Assembly (NCBI GenBank): GCA_016287465.1
Contig: JAEEWP010000004.1
Location: 1 to 38,160 of the forward strand
Origin: Caryophanales bacterium
Lineage (GTDB): Bacteria > Bacillota_I > Bacilli_A > RFN20 > CAG-826
DNA: 38,160 nucleotides
Reading direction: 5' to 3'
Below, in pieces: positions 26,003 to 37,250 of the stretch. Below the pieces are notes generated by a model. It did no database searches, was not told the DNA's origin, and saw only the letters and a list, made by a program, of their open reading frames with translations. The translations under genes were made by a program, and so were the position numbers. How positions within the stretch are numbered: the first letter of the stretch is position 1; each line of letters starts with the position of its first letter.

Positions 26003-27670
26003 ATGAGAAACAAAAAGATTAGATTGATCAATTTTGAGGTCGTTCTTTCCTGTGCGTGCATTTTGCTTGCTGGGTGCAACAACCAGCCAGCCGAATCTAG
26101 CGTGGCGCCAGCCAGTTCAGAAGAGGAAACCTACAACATCGTCCGTCCGGAATTTGACGGGGATTATTTGACCTATGACATCGGCCAAGATCCTAAGGGA
26201 TTCAACCTCACTTACTATAACGGCGTCTATTCCCGCGGCTTCTCCTGGCTCACCGATAACACCGTCGAAGAGACTGAGCTTTATCTTGTGAAATCGGATA
26301 AAGGGGAGCAGGCAGATTTCTCTGGCGCCGAACTCATTAACGGCGTCACTCAGGAATTCGTCTCCAAGACCAACGGAACCGTCTCCTTCACAGATAGCGA
26401 TATCCCCGATGGAAAAGGATCTAGCAGCAGCATGGAGCTCACCCTCAATTCCCATAAGGTTCACGTTGAGAATCTTGAGAAAGGCAAAGCCTATAGTTAC
26501 AAAGTCGGCGCGCCTGACCATTATTACTACGGTGCGTTTGTGGTGGAGAAAGAACACCCATCTTCCATAACCGCCATCGAGCTTAGCGATGCCCAAACCA
26601 TCGAGCCAGATAAACTCAATGTTTGGCGCAACACCTTCACCAAAGCCGTCGATACAGCCGGCAATGACCTTGATATGGTCCTATATAACGGAGACCAGTT
26701 CGACCAGAACATGAGAACCGTTTCTGGCATCAGCCCAAGCAAACCACAAAGACTTCAGGCCTATGTCAAAGCCCTCGACGTCATCAATGACTACAAGATC
26801 AACCTCGCTTATATGGCAAGCGCTGGCAACCACGAGCCAAGTGCCTCCTATTCCCAGTACATCATGAGTGATATCGACTATGCCGGTTTCACCAAAGAAG
26901 GTTGCTATTACTCATACGATTATGAGTACGCTCACTTTACCGTCCTCGATAGCAACACCCTCAAAAGCGGAAGTGCCCAGTTCGAATGGCTAAAAGATGA
27001 TCTTAAGAATGCGGCTAATTCGAAATGGAAAGTTGTCATGGTGCATCACTCTCCATATACGACTGGCGACCATAGCAATAAGAGTGAAACCCACACCTTC
27101 ATTGAGCTCTTAGCCCCTCTCTTCTCCGAGAATCACGTTGACCTCGTCCTTGAGGCCCATGACCATACATATAGCAAAACCCTCCCATATCGCTGGGATG
27201 CAGCAGGTTACACAACCTCATTCGACGATGACGAAGTAGTAAATTTGAACCCTACAAAAGAGACCATCGATGAGACGACATATGACAAGAACCCAAATGG
27301 CACCTATTACGTCATCACCGGTGCTGCTGGACATCGTCACGGTGCCAGAGAAGCCGAAGACGGCATCTGGGCTGAGTGTGTTGTCGAAGATGGCGAGATG
27401 AAAGGCTTAGACCCAAGCAACACCTTCGTTAACAATAAGTACAAGACCGTCGTCGGCACTTTGACTCAGGAAAACGAGTATGAGCCATACACCACGAATG
27501 GCCACACTTCCGATCAGCATTACGAAGTAGGGGATCCTGCGACTGGCAACGTCAACGCCGCGATGTTTGGCGTCCTTACGCTCAAAGAGAATACCCTTTC
27601 CTATCACGTCTACACCGTCAACGATGAAGAAGTTAAACTTTTCGATACACTCGATGTAATGAAAGGTTGA
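26003..27670 (+). CDS. Secreted metallophosphoesterase lipoprotein (purple acid phosphatase-like)
   Basis: 555 residues. Signal peptide with lipobox LLAGC (Cys25), then a Fn3-like N-terminal domain (about 40-185) as in purple acid phosphatases, and a calcineurin-like metallophosphoesterase domain (about 190-450) with GDQFD (about 230-234), GNHE (275-278), VHHSP (His348-His349) and AHDH (385-388). The first GDxH motif of the family is replaced around ELSDAQT, so one metal ligand should be examined. It would hydrolyse phosphate esters or nucleotides outside the cell. The site AGAAGGGG precedes the ATG. Two palindromes upstream may be regulatory. Confidence 0.85.
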   Translation: MRNKKIRLINFEVVLSCACILLAGCNNQPAESSVAPASSEEETYNIVRPEFDGDYLTYDIGQDPKGFNLTYYNGVYSRGFSWLTDNTVEETELYLVKSDKGEQADFSGAELINGVTQEFVSKTNGTVSFTDSDIPDGKGSSSSMELTLNSHKVHVENLEKGKAYSYKVGAPDHYYYGAFVVEKEHPSSITAIELSDAQTIEPDKLNVWRNTFTKAVDTAGNDLDMVLYNGDQFDQNMRTVSGISPSKPQRLQAYVKALDVINDYKINLAYMASAGNHEPSASYSQYIMSDIDYAGFTKEGCYYSYDYEYAHFTVLDSNTLKSGSAQFEWLKDDLKNAANSKWKVVMVHHSPYTTGDHSNKSETHTFIELLAPLFSENHVDLVLEAHDHTYSKTLPYRWDAAGYTTSFDDDEVVNLNPTKETIDETTYDKNPNGTYYVITGAAGHRHGAREAEDGIWAECVVEDGEMKGLDPSNTFVNNKYKTVVGTLTQENEYEPYTTNGHTSDQHYEVGDPATGNVNAAMFGVLTLKENTLSYHVYTVNDEEVKLFDTLDVMKG

Positions 27671-27682: not shown

Positions 27683-28150
27683 ATGAAAAATAAGTTCCTG
27701 CCTATTGTACTTTCTTCCGTTCTATTAGCCGGATGCGGCCTTTTGACCGACTTTGATGAGTTTAGCAATAAGCTCGGCGTATCAATGCCTAGCAAATATG
27801 AGAAGCTTTTTCAGGGTGGCGAGAGCGCGATAGACTCATCTTTACACTACGACATCTACTCTGTGAAAGAGGAGTGGAAACTCGAATACCAAACCCAATA
27901 CCAAACCGACTTCGAAGAGCCGTTTGAACTGGATAAGTACATCGACGCTATTAACGGATATGAGCCTCTAAACATCCCAGAAGAGCGCTATATCCCACAT
28001 TCCTCTAGCCTTGACTGGGTTTGCAAAAGAGAAAAGGGCAAAACAAGGAATTATGAGTGGCTTCTGATCTTTGACAGCAGCACCAAAATGCTCTATGCCT
28101 TAGACAGCACCCATCAATACTTTACCCAAGGCATTCCATACAGGAATTGA
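27683..28150 (+). CDS. Putative lipoprotein, hypothetical
   Basis: 155 residues with an n-region, hydrophobic core and lipobox LLAGC (MKNKFLPIVLSSVLLAGCG; Cys18). The mature domain is about 135 residues, acidic and rich in Tyr and Glu, with no recognised family. It starts 12 bases after the phosphoesterase gene but with its own -10 box, so it can be transcribed separately. A terminator follows. Function unknown. Confidence 0.72.
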   Translation: MKNKFLPIVLSSVLLAGCGLLTDFDEFSNKLGVSMPSKYEKLFQGGESAIDSSLHYDIYSVKEEWKLEYQTQYQTDFEEPFELDKYIDAINGYEPLNIPEERYIPHSSSLDWVCKREKGKTRNYEWLLIFDSSTKMLYALDSTHQYFTQGIPYRN

Positions 28151-28175: not shown

Positions 28176-28207
28176 GACCAATGGTCAGTTCCGTTGGTCT
28201 TTTTTTG
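28176..28207 (+). terminator. Rho-independent terminator
   Basis: GACCAA/TTGGTC stem with a 12-base loop followed by TTTTTTT, 25 bases after the lipoprotein stop. Confidence 0.8.
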
Positions 28208-28295: not shown

Positions 28296-30119
28296 ATGGT
28301 TAGGAAAAAAGTCGTACATATCTTCTTCACCGTTGATGATAACTATATACCGTTCCTCTCAACAACAATCGCCAGTATCGTGGCCCACGCTTCTAGCGAA
28401 TACAAATACCGTTTAACCATCCTTCATGACGGTCTTTCCCTCGAAAGCAAAAGGATGCTCCGCAAATACCAGGACAACGAGAAGATCTTCATCTCGTTCT
28501 TTAACGTCAACATCAAGGTCAACTCCCTTTCCGTCAAACTCGATGTCCGTGATTACTACACGATTACGACCTATTATCGTCTATTCATCCCGTCCCTCTT
28601 CCCAACTTTAAGCAAATGCTTATACCTCGACAGCGACATCGTTCTTAACGAAGACGTCGCCAAACTCTATTTCACCGATTTGGAGGACAACCTAGTAGGT
28701 GCTATCCCAGATGCCTCCGTCCAGCTCTTCAGCGAATTCTCCAACTATGTTGAGAAGGTTTTAGAGGTCGATCATACCAAATACTTCAACGCCGGCATCC
28801 TTTTGATGAACCTCAAGAAGCTCAGGCAATTCAACCTTGAAAGACGCTTCATCAATCTCATCAACAGAGTCACCTTCAAAGTCGCTCAAGACCAGGATGT
28901 TTTGAATTACCTTTGCAAAGACCAGGTCAAATACATCGACAAGAGATGGAACGTCATGCCTTTAGGCGAGAAGATCAACGATCCATTCCTCGTCCATTAC
29001 AACCTCATGTTCAAGCCTTGGAACCTCACCAACATCATGTATGAGGAGCTCTTCTTCAAATACGCCGAAGAAGCAGGGGTCAAAGAGCAGATCATCAAGA
29101 ACAGGGACGCTATCCCTGCTGAAGTAGTCGCGAACATCCTCAAAGGCGTCGACGGAGTTAAGGCTTTCTGCAACCAAGAAGCCGAGAAAGCCGAAGAGTA
29201 CCACGAGAAGATGACTGGCACCCCGAAGAAAGAACGCTTCGAGACTATCGAGATGAAAGTGAGACAAGGCAAGGTCAACGTTCCTAAACTCACCAAAGAA
29301 AGACAGGAGATCGTCGACAAGATCGCCGAGCTCGAAAGAGAAGGCAAATTCGATATCGATGTCGAAAACGATCCGCCATTCCGCCGCCTTATGCCAGGAG
29401 ACGTCGACTATTTGAGAAGAAAATGGTCGAGCAAATTCAAGACCTGGTGGGCCAATTACTATTCCTACCTTTACTTCAAGCACCTCATCAAGAAAGGCCA
29501 AATCGTCATCGATGGCTATGAGGGCATCGAGAACCTTAAAGCCGTCAAGGGAGGCGCCATCATCACCGCCAACCATTTCTCCCCGTTTGATAGCATCCCA
29601 GTCCATCTCGCGGTCAAGAAACACGCTAGATGCAAGAAGCTCTTCAAGATCATCAGGGAAGGCAACTACACGATGCCTGGCCTTTATGGTTACTTCTTAA
29701 GAAACTGCAACACTCTTCCTTTAGCGACGAACCCAACCGTCATGAGGGATTTCCTGAGGTCAGTTGATATCATCCTCAAGAAAGGCAACTTCATCCTCAT
29801 CTACCCAGAGCAGTCGATGTGGTGGAACTACCGCAAACCAAAACCTTTGAAGCCAGGCGCTTTCATCTTCGCTGCGAAGAATAACGTCCCAGTCATCCCA
29901 ACCTTCATCACCATGCGTGATACCGAAAAGACCGAGGAATCGGGCGCTTACGTCCAGGCCTATACCATGCACATCATGGAACCAATCTATCCAGATGATT
30001 CCTTAAGCCAGCAAGAGAACGTCGCTCATATGCTAAGAGAAAACGAGAAACGCTGGAAAGAGGTCTATGAGAAGACCTATGGAGAGCCTTTGACCTATCT
30101 CACCAAAGAGGAAGAATAA
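28296..30119 (+). CDS. Fusion of GT8 family glycosyltransferase and PlsC-type acyltransferase
   Basis: 607 residues. Residues about 5-265 are a GT8 domain: HIFFTVDDNYIPFLSTTIAS at the N-terminus, the metal-binding DxD in YLDSDIVL (about 112-114), YFNAGILLMNL and DQDVLNYL. A charged linker (about 270-370) joins it to a PlsC/LPLAT domain (about 380-600) with acyltransferase motif NHFSPFD (about 425-431; His and Asp catalytic), GNYTMPGLYGYFLRN, YPEQSMWW (about 502-509) and VPVIPTF. The GT8 half should transfer a hexose from a nucleotide sugar and the PlsC half an acyl chain to a hydroxyl, together suggesting synthesis of an acylated glycolipid at the membrane. AGGAG precedes the ATG. The next gene overlaps by one base. 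Confidence 0.88.
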   Translation: MVRKKVVHIFFTVDDNYIPFLSTTIASIVAHASSEYKYRLTILHDGLSLESKRMLRKYQDNEKIFISFFNVNIKVNSLSVKLDVRDYYTITTYYRLFIPSLFPTLSKCLYLDSDIVLNEDVAKLYFTDLEDNLVGAIPDASVQLFSEFSNYVEKVLEVDHTKYFNAGILLMNLKKLRQFNLERRFINLINRVTFKVAQDQDVLNYLCKDQVKYIDKRWNVMPLGEKINDPFLVHYNLMFKPWNLTNIMYEELFFKYAEEAGVKEQIIKNRDAIPAEVVANILKGVDGVKAFCNQEAEKAEEYHEKMTGTPKKERFETIEMKVRQGKVNVPKLTKERQEIVDKIAELEREGKFDIDVENDPPFRRLMPGDVDYLRRKWSSKFKTWWANYYSYLYFKHLIKKGQIVIDGYEGIENLKAVKGGAIITANHFSPFDSIPVHLAVKKHARCKKLFKIIREGNYTMPGLYGYFLRNCNTLPLATNPTVMRDFLRSVDIILKKGNFILIYPEQSMWWNYRKPKPLKPGAFIFAAKNNVPVIPTFITMRDTEKTEESGAYVQAYTMHIMEPIYPDDSLSQQENVAHMLRENEKRWKEVYEKTYGEPLTYLTKEEE

Positions 30120-30727
30120 TGGTTCTATATCTCATCACCATCTTCGTCGGCGTTGTCGCGGTCTCCGCTTTGAACATTTTCTTTAACCCACTTTACCAAG
30201 ATGGTTGGTGGTTTTATATCCTTTTCACCCTTGGTTTCACGGTTATTGCCGTCATCATTGATGCCATCGTGGCCATTGTCATCAGGAAGATGCCTGAGAG
30301 ATGGTTCCAACAGGACAAAGGAATATTCAAAACCAGCGAGAGAGAACTAAAGTTCTACCATTTCCTCAAGGTGCATAAGTGGAAGGACTTCGTTCCTGAG
30401 CTCGGTAGCTTCACCGGCTTCCATAAGAACAAAGTCGCGACCCCATTCGACAACGAATACATCTCCCGCTTCATCTTGGAGGCGAGGTACGGCGTCGCCA
30501 TTCACATATATAGTGTTCCCGCTTCCTTCCTCATCATCCTCTGTGACTGGAGAATGTATACCGGAGAATCAAATCTTTGGTTAACGATCGCTCTCCCGGT
30601 TGCCATCGTAAACGCCATCCTAATTGTCCTTCCTGCCTTCATCTTGAAGTACAACCTTCCTAGACTCATCGCCATCTACAACAACAACATCGAGCTCGAA
30701 AAACGCAAAAAGAGCCAGCAAAATTGA
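30119..30727 (+). CDS. CrtO-like (glycosyl-4,4'-diaponeurosporenoate acyltransferase family) membrane protein
   Basis: 202 residues with four hydrophobic segments (about 2-18, 28-52, 122-140, 158-182). The central part KFYHFLKVHKWKDFVPELGSF and the final KYNLPRLIAIY resemble the WKxxxP and YNRPRL regions of CrtO-type acyltransferases, which acylate the sugar in staphyloxanthin. It starts one base inside the GT8-PlsC gene and ends before a terminator, so the two form a unit. No carotenoid genes are present in the window, so the acceptor is more likely the glycolipid made by the fusion enzyme (inference). Confidence 0.65.
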   Translation: MVLYLITIFVGVVAVSALNIFFNPLYQDGWWFYILFTLGFTVIAVIIDAIVAIVIRKMPERWFQQDKGIFKTSERELKFYHFLKVHKWKDFVPELGSFTGFHKNKVATPFDNEYISRFILEARYGVAIHIYSVPASFLIILCDWRMYTGESNLWLTIALPVAIVNAILIVLPAFILKYNLPRLIAIYNNNIELEKRKKSQQN

Positions 30728-31819: not shown

Positions 31820-33226
31820 TTATTCTCTGCCATCCCAGCAGTAGGTACAGATCTTATCAGGATCGAGTCCGACAGCTTCTTTAAGATCATCAAGTCTCAT
31901 GAAGCGGAGGGATGTGAAGTTAAGCTTTTCGCGAATGTATTCGATCATATTGGCGTATTCTTTGCTATCTGGATCGAGATACTTCTTGATGGTTTCTGGC
32001 TCAACGTTTCCTTCAAGGGCCATGATGGCGCGTCTAGCGATTAGTTCCATGTCGCTAGTGGAAGCGGAGAAGTTGAGGTATTTGCAGGCATAAAGTATCG
32101 GAGGGCAGGAGGAACGGACATGAACCTCAGCGGCGCCGGACTTATAAAGGAATTCCGTCGTCTCTCTCATCTGGGTGCCTCTGACGATTGAGTCATCGAT
32201 GAGAAGAAGCTTCTTGCCATCGATCAAATCGTGGATCGGAATGAGCTTCATGTGAGCGATGAGGTTACGTTTCGTCTGCATCGTAGGCATGAAGGAACGA
32301 GGCCAAGTAGGGGTGTATTTGACGAATGGCCTTGAGAATGGGATACCTGAGGCATTTGAGTAGCCGATCGCGGCTCCAAGGCCGGAATCAGGGACGCCGG
32401 CGACGGAATCAGGTTTGACGTTATCGCGCTTGGCGATGAATTCGCCGCATTTGCATCTAAGTTTCTCGACCGAGAGTCCTTCGTAGACGGTTGATGGGTA
32501 GCCATAGTAGATCCAAAGGAAGGTGCAGATACGCATCTTGTTTCCTGGTTCCACCAGAGTTCTGACGCCTGTTTCAGCGTTGATGACGTCGATCTCGCCT
32601 GGGCCGAGTTTCTTATAAGCCGTGTATCCTAAATTAAGGAACGCGAACGATTCGAATGTGACGCAATATGTGCCGTCTTCTTTCTTGCCGATGACGACAG
32701 GGGTTCTTCCGTATTTGTCTCTAGAGCAGTAGATGCCCTTCTCGTTGAGAAGGAGGATGGTCATTGAGCCATCGATGACTTCTTGGACATATTGCAAACC
32801 TTCAATGAGGTTTTTCTTTTGATTGATGATGCTGGCGACGAGCTCAGTGCTATTGATGTCGCCGGTTGAGGTTTCGAGGAAGTGGGCGTTGTTATTAAGG
32901 AATTTTTCTTCGAGTTCTTTGGCGTTGTTGATTTTGCCAACGCATGTGATGGCATACGTGCCGTGGTTCGATCTCACGACGAGAGGCTGGGAATCGAAAT
33001 CGGAGATGCATCCGATGCCCATGTTGCCTTTCATCGCCATGGCTTCTTTTTCGAATTTGGTTCTGAAAGGGGAGTTCTCGATCTTGTGGATCGCTTTGGT
33101 GATCCTGCCGTCATTCAAAACGGCCAAGCCCGCTCTTCTAGTACCTAAATGTGAGTGGTAGTCGACCCCATAGAAAAGGTCGAATACACAGTCGCTTTTG
33201 CCGACAACTCCGAAAAATCCGCCCAT
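31820..33226 (-). CDS. PurF-like amidophosphoribosyltransferase paralog lacking the N-terminal catalytic cysteine
   Basis: 468 residues with a glutaminase-type N-terminal domain (1-235) and a phosphoribosyltransferase domain (about 255-440) with the PRPP-binding motif [13 protein letters not shown] and GVPDSGLGAAIGYS. The N-terminus reads MGGFFGVV where true PurF has CGxFG: the nucleophilic cysteine that becomes residue 1 is a glycine here, so glutamine hydrolysis should be impossible. The C-terminus ends CTYCWDGRE. Proteins of this type are annotated as amidophosphoribosyltransferases in several gut bacteria. It may use free ammonia, act as a regulator, or act on another nucleophile. It lies antisense among pur genes, with a possible cre-like site upstream. 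Confidence 0.85.
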   Translation of the reverse strand: MGGFFGVVGKSDCVFDLFYGVDYHSHLGTRRAGLAVLNDGRITKAIHKIENSPFRTKFEKEAMAMKGNMGIGCISDFDSQPLVVRSNHGTYAITCVGKINNAKELEEKFLNNNAHFLETSTGDINSTELVASIINQKKNLIEGLQYVQEVIDGSMTILLLNEKGIYCSRDKYGRTPVVIGKKEDGTYCVTFESFAFLNLGYTAYKKLGPGEIDVINAETGVRTLVEPGNKMRICTFLWIYYGYPSTVYEGLSVEKLRCKCGEFIAKRDNVKPDSVAGVPDSGLGAAIGYSNASGIPFSRPFVKYTPTWPRSFMPTMQTKRNLIAHMKLIPIHDLIDGKKLLLIDDSIVRGTQMRETTEFLYKSGAAEVHVRSSCPPILYACKYLNFSASTSDMELIARRAIMALEGNVEPETIKKYLDPDSKEYANMIEYIREKLNFTSLRFMRLDDLKEAVGLDPDKICTYCWDGRE

Positions 33227-35831: not shown

Positions 35832-37250
35832 ATGTCGTCGTTACATGAAGAATGTGGAATCTTCGGTGTCTATTCACCGGTAAAACAAGACGTCGCCAGA
35901 ACCGCATACTACGGTTTATTCGCCCTCCAGCACCGTGGACAAGAATCCTGCGGCATCGTCGTCTGCGATGACGGTCTTTTCTCAACTTACAAAGACTTAG
36001 GCCTTGTCGAAGAGGTCTTCACCGAACGTCATCTTGCCCGCCTTGGACAAGGAAACATCGCCGTGGGCCATGTCAGATACGGCACCACAGGCGCCACAGA
36101 TAGACACAACGCCCAGCCTCTCGTCGTCAACCATATCCATGGCCATATCGCCATCGCCCATAATGGCAATATCACCAACTCATTCGAACTTCGTTCCCAG
36201 CTTGAGCTCCAAGGCTCGATCTTCCACACAACCTCAGACACAGAGGTCATTTCCTACATAGTCACAAGAGAAAGAATCACCTCTAACTCCATCGAAGAAG
36301 CGGTGGAACGCGCGATGTACACCATCAAAGGCGCGTATTCCCTTGCCGTTATGTCCCCGACGAAACTCGTCATCGCCCGCGACCCATATGGTTTTAGGCC
36401 TCTTTGCTATGGCGTCAGAGATGATGGCACATATATCGCCGCAAGCGAAACCTGCGCCCTTGAATCTGTCGGCGCCAAGTTCGTCCGCGACGTCCTCCCA
36501 GGCGAAGTCGTCTACTTCGACAAGGATGGCGTTCACTCCATCAAGACGCACTGCGGCAAACAGAAGAAACACATTTGTGTATTCGAATTCGTCTATTTCG
36601 CTAGACCTGATTCAGTGATTGACGGCGTATCCGTCCATTCAGCCAGGGTCAAAGCGGGAGAATACCTCGCAAAATCCCATCCAGTTGAGGCCGATATCGT
36701 CATCGGCGTCCCGGATTCAGGACTTGATGCCGCAATCGGATATTCAAAGGAATCAGGCATCCCTTACGAAATCGGATACATCAAAAACAAATACATCGGC
36801 CGCACGTTCATCGCTCCTGGCCAAGATAACAGGGAAGACAAAGTCAAACTCAAGCTCAACCCAATCTCATCGGTCGTCAAAGGCAAACGAGTGGTGGTCA
36901 TCGATGACTCGATCGTCAGAGGCACCACAAGCAAGAAGACAATCAAGCTCCTTCGCGATGCGGGCGCCAAAGAAATCCACATGAGGGTATCCTCACCGAC
37001 CTTCCTCAATCCTTGCTTCTATGGCACGGACATCGATTCGAAAGACAATCTCATCGCCTGCCACCATTCGGTGGAGGAGATCGCGAAGATCATCGGCGCG
37101 GATTCGCTTGGATTCCTCTCGGTCGAAAACGTCAGGGACATCGCAGGGGGAGAATGCTGCACGGCTTGCTTCGATGGCAAGTACCCGACAGCCATTCCAA
37201 AAGACAACAGAAAATCAAGATTCGAAAGCAAGATCTCAGATAAAGATTAA
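35832..37250 (+). CDS. purF: Amidophosphoribosyltransferase
   Basis: 472 residues. A short propeptide MSSLHEE precedes the catalytic cysteine (Cys8, CGIFGVYS), exposed after processing. The glutaminase domain contains [11 protein letters not shown] and [10 protein letters not shown]; the PRTase domain contains [14 protein letters not shown] and the PRPP loop [15 protein letters not shown]. Cysteines near the C-terminus ([11 protein letters not shown]) match the [4Fe-4S] ligand region of Bacillus-type PurF. It makes phosphoribosylamine from PRPP and glutamine, the committed step. GGAGG precedes the ATG; 32 bases separate it from purE. Compare with the cysteine-less paralog on the minus strand. 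Confidence 0.97.

Follow-up and report, generated by a model that had tools for sequence, protein, structure and literature searches.

Organization of the Locus

The window (i.e., the whole 38,160-nucleotide stretch of DNA analyzed, from contig JAEEWP010000004.1 of the Caryophanales bacterium assembly GCA_016287465.1) contains a single uninterrupted reading frame of 607 residues that spans exactly 28296-30119. According to Pfam, its N-terminal part is a Glyco_transf_8 (GT8) domain (PF01501, residues 8-243, 160.8 bits vs. a cut-off of 24.3, E = 6e-47), while its C-terminal part is a PlsC-type acyltransferase (LPLAT) domain (PF01553, residues 409-538, 47.5 bits vs. a cut-off of 23, E = 2e-12). 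Its stop codon and the start codon of a CrtO-family gene overlap by one base (TAATG). The features identified are as follows:

28176-28199 (+): intrinsic-terminator-like hairpin and T run (9 pairs, 7-T tail) between the upstream lipoprotein gene and the putative operon; consensus match only
28296-30119 (+): GT8-LPLAT fusion protein, 607 aa, with an AGGAG ribosome-binding-like site just 5'
28317-29024 (+): GT8 domain PF01501, residues 8-243, from Pfam and from Foldseek matches to WbbM (6u4b) and LgtC (1g9r)
28629-28637 (+): DxD metal/nucleotide-sugar motif D112-S-D114, both aspartates invariant in 70 relatives
28995-28997 (+): H234, the GT8 histidine within a HYNLxxKPW motif, invariant
29076-29273 (+): charged linker, residues 261-326, largely helical, of low confidence around 311-330 and the least conserved region
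29274-30116 (+): LPLAT unit, residues 327-607, with a conserved N-terminal extension (FDxDVENDPP) common to stand-alone homologues
29571-29591 (+): LPLAT block I, NHxxxxD (N426, H427 and D432), invariant
29658-29666 (+): E455-G456-N457, with E and N invariant
29805-29813 (+): PEQ of block III (residues 504-506), followed by a near-invariant MWWNYRKP (508-515), from conservation among relatives
30119-30727 (+): CrtO-family acyltransferase (PF18927), 202 aa, a hydrophobic helical membrane protein, from Pfam and predicted helices
30733-30750 (+): intrinsic-terminator-like hairpin after the CrtO gene, which would close the two-gene operon; consensus match only

Both domains of the fusion exceed the curated Pfam cut-offs, which bears out the initial annotation in its claim of an intact GT8 and an intact LPLAT in one frame; it overlooked, however, the CrtO gene that would complete the operon. 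The product of 30119-30727 scored 65.2 bits against the CrtO family PF18927 (cut-off 27.3) and is helical with several hydrophobic stretches. A Foldseek search of its model against the PDB returned no significant fold match, NCBIfam gives it no CrtO name, and its putative CrtO activity is assigned by family only. The terminator-like hairpins on both sides suggest that the fusion and CrtO genes form a two-gene operon, although the 5 such matches found in the region, vs. 3.3 expected in shuffles, are suggestive only. Inclusion of the upstream lipoprotein and metallophosphatase genes in the operon is unsupported, as a hairpin lies between and they are not conserved neighbors.

Conservation of the Two Catalytic Centers

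The GT8 half contains the motifs Y110-L-D112-S-D114 and Q198-D199-Q-D201 as well as H234, and residues D112, D114, Q198, D199, D201 and H234 are unchanged across 70 distinct fusions. Thus, both the DxD and the C-terminal metal-binding histidine of GT8 enzymes (D112, D114 and H234) are present. The closest solved relatives of this half are LgtC, to which residues 9-224 of the fusion align (E = 5e-24), and WbbM; the similarities to LgtC and the GT8 domain of WbbM include the GT-A fold, the DxD, a conserved histidine near the domain end and the nucleotide-sugar site. The substrates of LgtC and WbbM are LPS-type glycans of Gram-negative bacteria, whereas the GT8 domain described here is joined to an LPLAT.

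In the LPLAT half, residues N426, H427, D432, E455, N457 and E505 are likewise unchanged across the 70 distinct fusions, and the HxxxxD of block I found in LPLAT/PlsC enzymes is present with H427 and D432 invariant. The usual block III motif of PlsC, PEGTR, which is not universal in PF01553, is absent from the fusion; a conserved variant, PEQ followed by MWWNYRKP, stands in its place, with YPEQ at residues 503-506. Used as a profile, the LPLAT half matched a single solved structure, Thermotoga PlsC (5kym), with marginal significance (E = 0.07), so that the acceptor class of this domain is not readable from homology. The fused LPLAT resembles the PlsC-type enzyme of Thermotoga maritima (PF01553; 5kym) in its NHxxxxD, its PE motif and the overall domain, but differs from it in having PEQxMWWNYRKP for PEGTR, the FDxDVENDPP extension and the attached GT8. 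It also scored well below the NCBIfam cut-off for the 1-acylglycerol-3-phosphate acyltransferase subfamily TIGR00530 (27.4 vs. 102.95 bits). Another PlsC-like protein, this one with PEGTR, is encoded elsewhere in the same genome, and the fused LPLAT is therefore probably not the housekeeping PlsC. The conserved LPLAT unit begins at about residue 327, the same point where stand-alone homologues begin, and the fusion junction is placed there for that reason.

The AlphaFold model of the fusion (mean pLDDT 87) consists of two confident domains with a weak stretch at about 311-330; its pTM of 0.55 leaves the relative placement of the domains unsure. The top Foldseek matches of the model are GT8/GT-A enzymes, WbbM and GlyE among them. 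Given that 70 distinct fused proteins were found in the loci examined, that dN/dS relative to the nearest relative is about 0.07 for the GT8 half and about 0.05 for the LPLAT half, and that the GT-A half of the confident model matches WbbM and LgtC, the fusion is neither a chance product, an assembly artefact nor an oddity of one contig. The catalytic residues, invariant in all of these proteins, also lend good support to the earlier proposal of two intact catalytic centers in one polypeptide.

Distribution of the Fused and Split Forms

In a contig scan, at least 574 related stretches matched the window protein, many of which may match one domain only. The best 80 of them were kept, and these are mostly from gut, rumen or faeces MAGs labelled Bacilli or Clostridia. 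Among the loci examined, 79 fused frames (70 distinct) span both halves. The fusion is thus not confined to this contig, a possibility that the initial annotation had raised against its own reading, as relatives occur in many gut or rumen Bacilli and Clostridia genomes. A second such possibility, a degenerate active site in close relatives, is ruled out by the invariance of the GT8 and LPLAT catalytic residues among the 70 distinct fusions.

The GT8-LPLAT core is widespread but patchy. Counted as fused or split and as whole or partial, it was found in 13 of 392 sampled genomes of the phylum of the window and in 18 of 393 sampled genomes of the class to which the genome bearing locus L094 belongs. 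Within the genus of the window it was found in 12 of 37 sampled genomes, in some merely as fragments at contig ends. No cultured species bearing the fusion was identified among the loci named, all of which are from MAGs or uncultured-bacterium assemblies. It should be noted that in locus L057, whose record is titled Gammaproteobacteria, the fusion is almost identical to that of the Bacillales MAG locus L055; L057 is probably mis-binned.

GT8 and LPLAT are encoded by separate neighboring genes in 21-22 of the 103 distinct loci and are fused in the remainder. Among the split loci, 21 have as partner either CrtO or a second GT8/LPLAT (GT8b/LPLb), and one has neither. On a tree of the joined sequences (a quick tree with SH-aLRT support only), 7 changes of state between fused and split forms are required. 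This repeated joining, together with the adjacency of the two genes where they are separate, indicates that the GT8 and LPLAT activities belong together and is good evidence that they act in one pathway, the order of whose steps it does not tell.

CrtO in Genomes without a Carotenoid Synthase

The CrtO gene lies directly 3' of the fusion gene, at a distance of -13 to +3 bases, in 36 fused loci, some of which are duplicates. Within the genus, the fusion is present in all 11 genomes with CrtO (as a fragment in two), and CrtO is absent from every genome that lacks the fusion (both counts uncorrected for kinship). In the sole genome of the genus that has the fusion without CrtO, a contig edge falls inside the fusion.

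Dehydrosqualene synthase (SQS_PSY, PF00494) was detected neither in the genome of the window nor in any of 28 further core-bearing genomes, while the same search was positive in 7 of 14 control genomes. Given the absence of SQS_PSY from these 29 genomes, we rejected a carotenoid (staphyloxanthin) pathway as the context of CrtO: a role in staphyloxanthin synthesis is very unlikely, and CrtO must act on something other than a carotenoid. Given that a member of the family, CrtO, acylates a glycosylated lipid (PMC12924280), the activity of the family would fit the product of the GT8 domain. The CrtQ-CrtO pair of Staphylococcus aureus, in which a glycosyltransferase acts first and CrtO then acylates the resulting glycoside, is similar in arrangement, and the gene in the window exceeds the PF18927 cut-off. 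Unlike that pair, the genes described here stand in genomes in which no carotenoid synthase was found (29 tested), their glycosyltransferase is a GT8 and an LPLAT is added. CrtO-family proteins are thus indicated outside carotenoid synthesis, and automatic labels of "glycosyl-4,4'-diaponeurosporenoate acyltransferase" mislead.

An Alternative Set of Partners

In 59 of the 103 distinct loci, the core is accompanied, in place of CrtO, by an additional GT8, an additional LPLAT or both, each exceeding its Pfam cut-off, and some Clostridia loci add a flippase-like protein (LPG_synthase_TM/TIGR00374). CrtO is the only partner in 41 loci, both arrangements are found together in none and neither is found in 3, two of which are in short stretches. 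The GT8b, LPLb and flippase-like partners suggest, from their families, a lipid-linked sugar assembly. One locus (L016/L128, on contig C15 of genome G043) has, next to the fusion, an additional GT8m copy of about 350 aa together with GT8b and LPLb.

The genome of the window also has relatives of GT8b and LPLb at other sites (about 27-37% identical to their Clostridial counterparts), and a search of 23 genomes of the genus found LPLb-like genes in 19, both fusion-bearing and fusion-less. The idea that CrtO has replaced GT8b/LPLb at the level of the genome is therefore unsupported; the mutual exclusion holds per locus only, and CrtO may be an addition to the GT8b/LPLb functions. On contig C43 of the same genome (L158, 5120-7103), a flippase-like gene overlaps a GT8 gene by 8 bases in the same order as in the Clostridial cluster. 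Close copies (≥89%) of this GT8 are found in 7 genomes of the genus, all of which carry the fusion. On contig C41 (L159, 235-1050, minus strand), an LPLAT with a PEAHIWPYCT motif is about 37% identical to Clostridial LPLb.

Proposed Function

The domains, their invariant active sites, the gene arrangement, the co-occurrence and the neighborhoods were observed directly. We propose, with a probability of roughly 0.6, that the fusion and CrtO genes form an operon that makes an acylated membrane glycolipid, in which GT8 would glycosylate a lipid, the LPLAT would acylate the product and CrtO would add an acyl chain. For this glycolipid we infer the donor, the acceptor, the step order, the acylation site and the product. 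GT8 would move a hexose, probably alpha-linked glucose or galactose, from a UDP-sugar onto a lipid on the cytoplasmic side of the membrane, for instance diacylglycerol or a preformed glycolipid. The LPLAT domain, attached through the helical linker, would then put a fatty acyl chain on the product, most likely on a hydroxyl of the sugar. Finally, the membrane-embedded CrtO would attach one more acyl chain to the glycoside, in the way that CrtO acylates the glycosylated carotenoid during staphyloxanthin synthesis. The position held here by CrtO is taken in many Clostridia by another LPLAT and another GT8, with a flippase-like protein added in some. In keeping with this proposal, the GT8 half resembles LgtC and WbbM, both of which transfer sugars in the assembly of LPS glycans. 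A weak counterpoint is that no GalU over the cut-off was found in the genome of the window, which has short partial matches only; the model is strict, with only 5 of 14 controls over its cut-off.

That a PlsC-type LPLAT can act on a sugar has been reported for GlcB of Rouxiella badensis, which acylates glucose (PMC12299268). Like the fused domain, GlcB belongs to the PlsC/LPLAT superfamily and is encoded in a small operon, where it reportedly adds a second acyl chain onto acylated glucose; its operon, however, encodes a GNAT-type transferase and a HAD phosphatase but no glycosyltransferase.

The main rival to the proposed order of steps is that the LPLAT makes the lipid acceptor, for example by acylating a lyso-lipid or a glycerol lipid, after which GT8 glycosylates it and CrtO alone acylates the sugar. 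Members of PF01553/TIGR00530 typically acylate glycerol lipids, and the CrtO partner could supply the acylation of the sugar. Nevertheless, the block III of the fused LPLAT is diverged (PEQxMWWNYRKP) and conserved as such in the family, a separate PlsC-like gene with PEGTR is present in the genome, and the fused domain scores just 27.4 of the 103 bits needed for TIGR00530. The first two of these points lean against this order, which we regard as rather unlikely.

The earlier suggestion that sugar transfer is linked to acylation is well supported, and of the two products then offered, an acylated glycolipid or a surface glycan, the glycolipid appears to be the best reading. The action of GT8 enzymes on LPS and serine-rich glycoproteins (WbbM and GlyE are among the structural matches) would suit a GT8 that extends a surface polymer or protein, with the acyltransferases O-acylating it. 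The glycolipid is favored by what accompanies the core, namely CrtO, the second LPLAT/GT8 and a flippase-like protein, the acyltransferases among these being of lipid type; in the clustered neighborhoods no family beyond GT8, LPLAT, CrtO and the flippase-like protein is conserved around the core. Decoration of a surface glycan or glycoprotein is thus improbable. It is more improbable still that two enzymes of different pathways were joined and kept by chance with their activities uncoupled, as might be read from the patchy distribution (12 of 37 sampled genus genomes), in view of the adjacency conserved when unfused, the repeated fusion and fission, the conserved partners and the purifying selection on both halves.

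Turning back to the acylated glycolipid, we found no description of a GT8-LPLAT fusion or of a fusion-CrtO operon in the open-access literature searched, which does not prove that they are undescribed. Each domain belongs to a known family; it is their combination with a non-carotenoid CrtO and the alternation with a second GT8/LPLAT set that were not found described there. We tentatively suggest a previously undescribed pathway in gut Bacillota: a single polypeptide would glycosylate a lipid and acylate the product, and a multi-acylated glycolipid of the surface or membrane would then be completed by a non-carotenoid CrtO or, among Clostridia, by another GT8/LPLAT pair with a flippase-like protein. 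In gut bacteria, glycolipids are structural components of membranes and often immune-active, and to our knowledge few of the genes behind their acylated forms have been identified. The conserved fusion with its two alternative sets of partners would point to a specific group of genes for making such a lipid in uncultured gut Bacillota.

Other Genes in the Window

A small lipoprotein gene (27683-28150, plus strand) lies just 5' of the fusion gene. Also 5' of the fusion is a gene for a lipoprotein-like metallophosphatase (26003-27670, plus strand), whose only counterpart at this position was in the nearest relative, L047. On the other side, a second, diverged PurF-like protein (192.8 bits vs. 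a cut-off of 350) is encoded at 31820-33226 on the minus strand, near purC, purE and a full-score purF (35832-37250).
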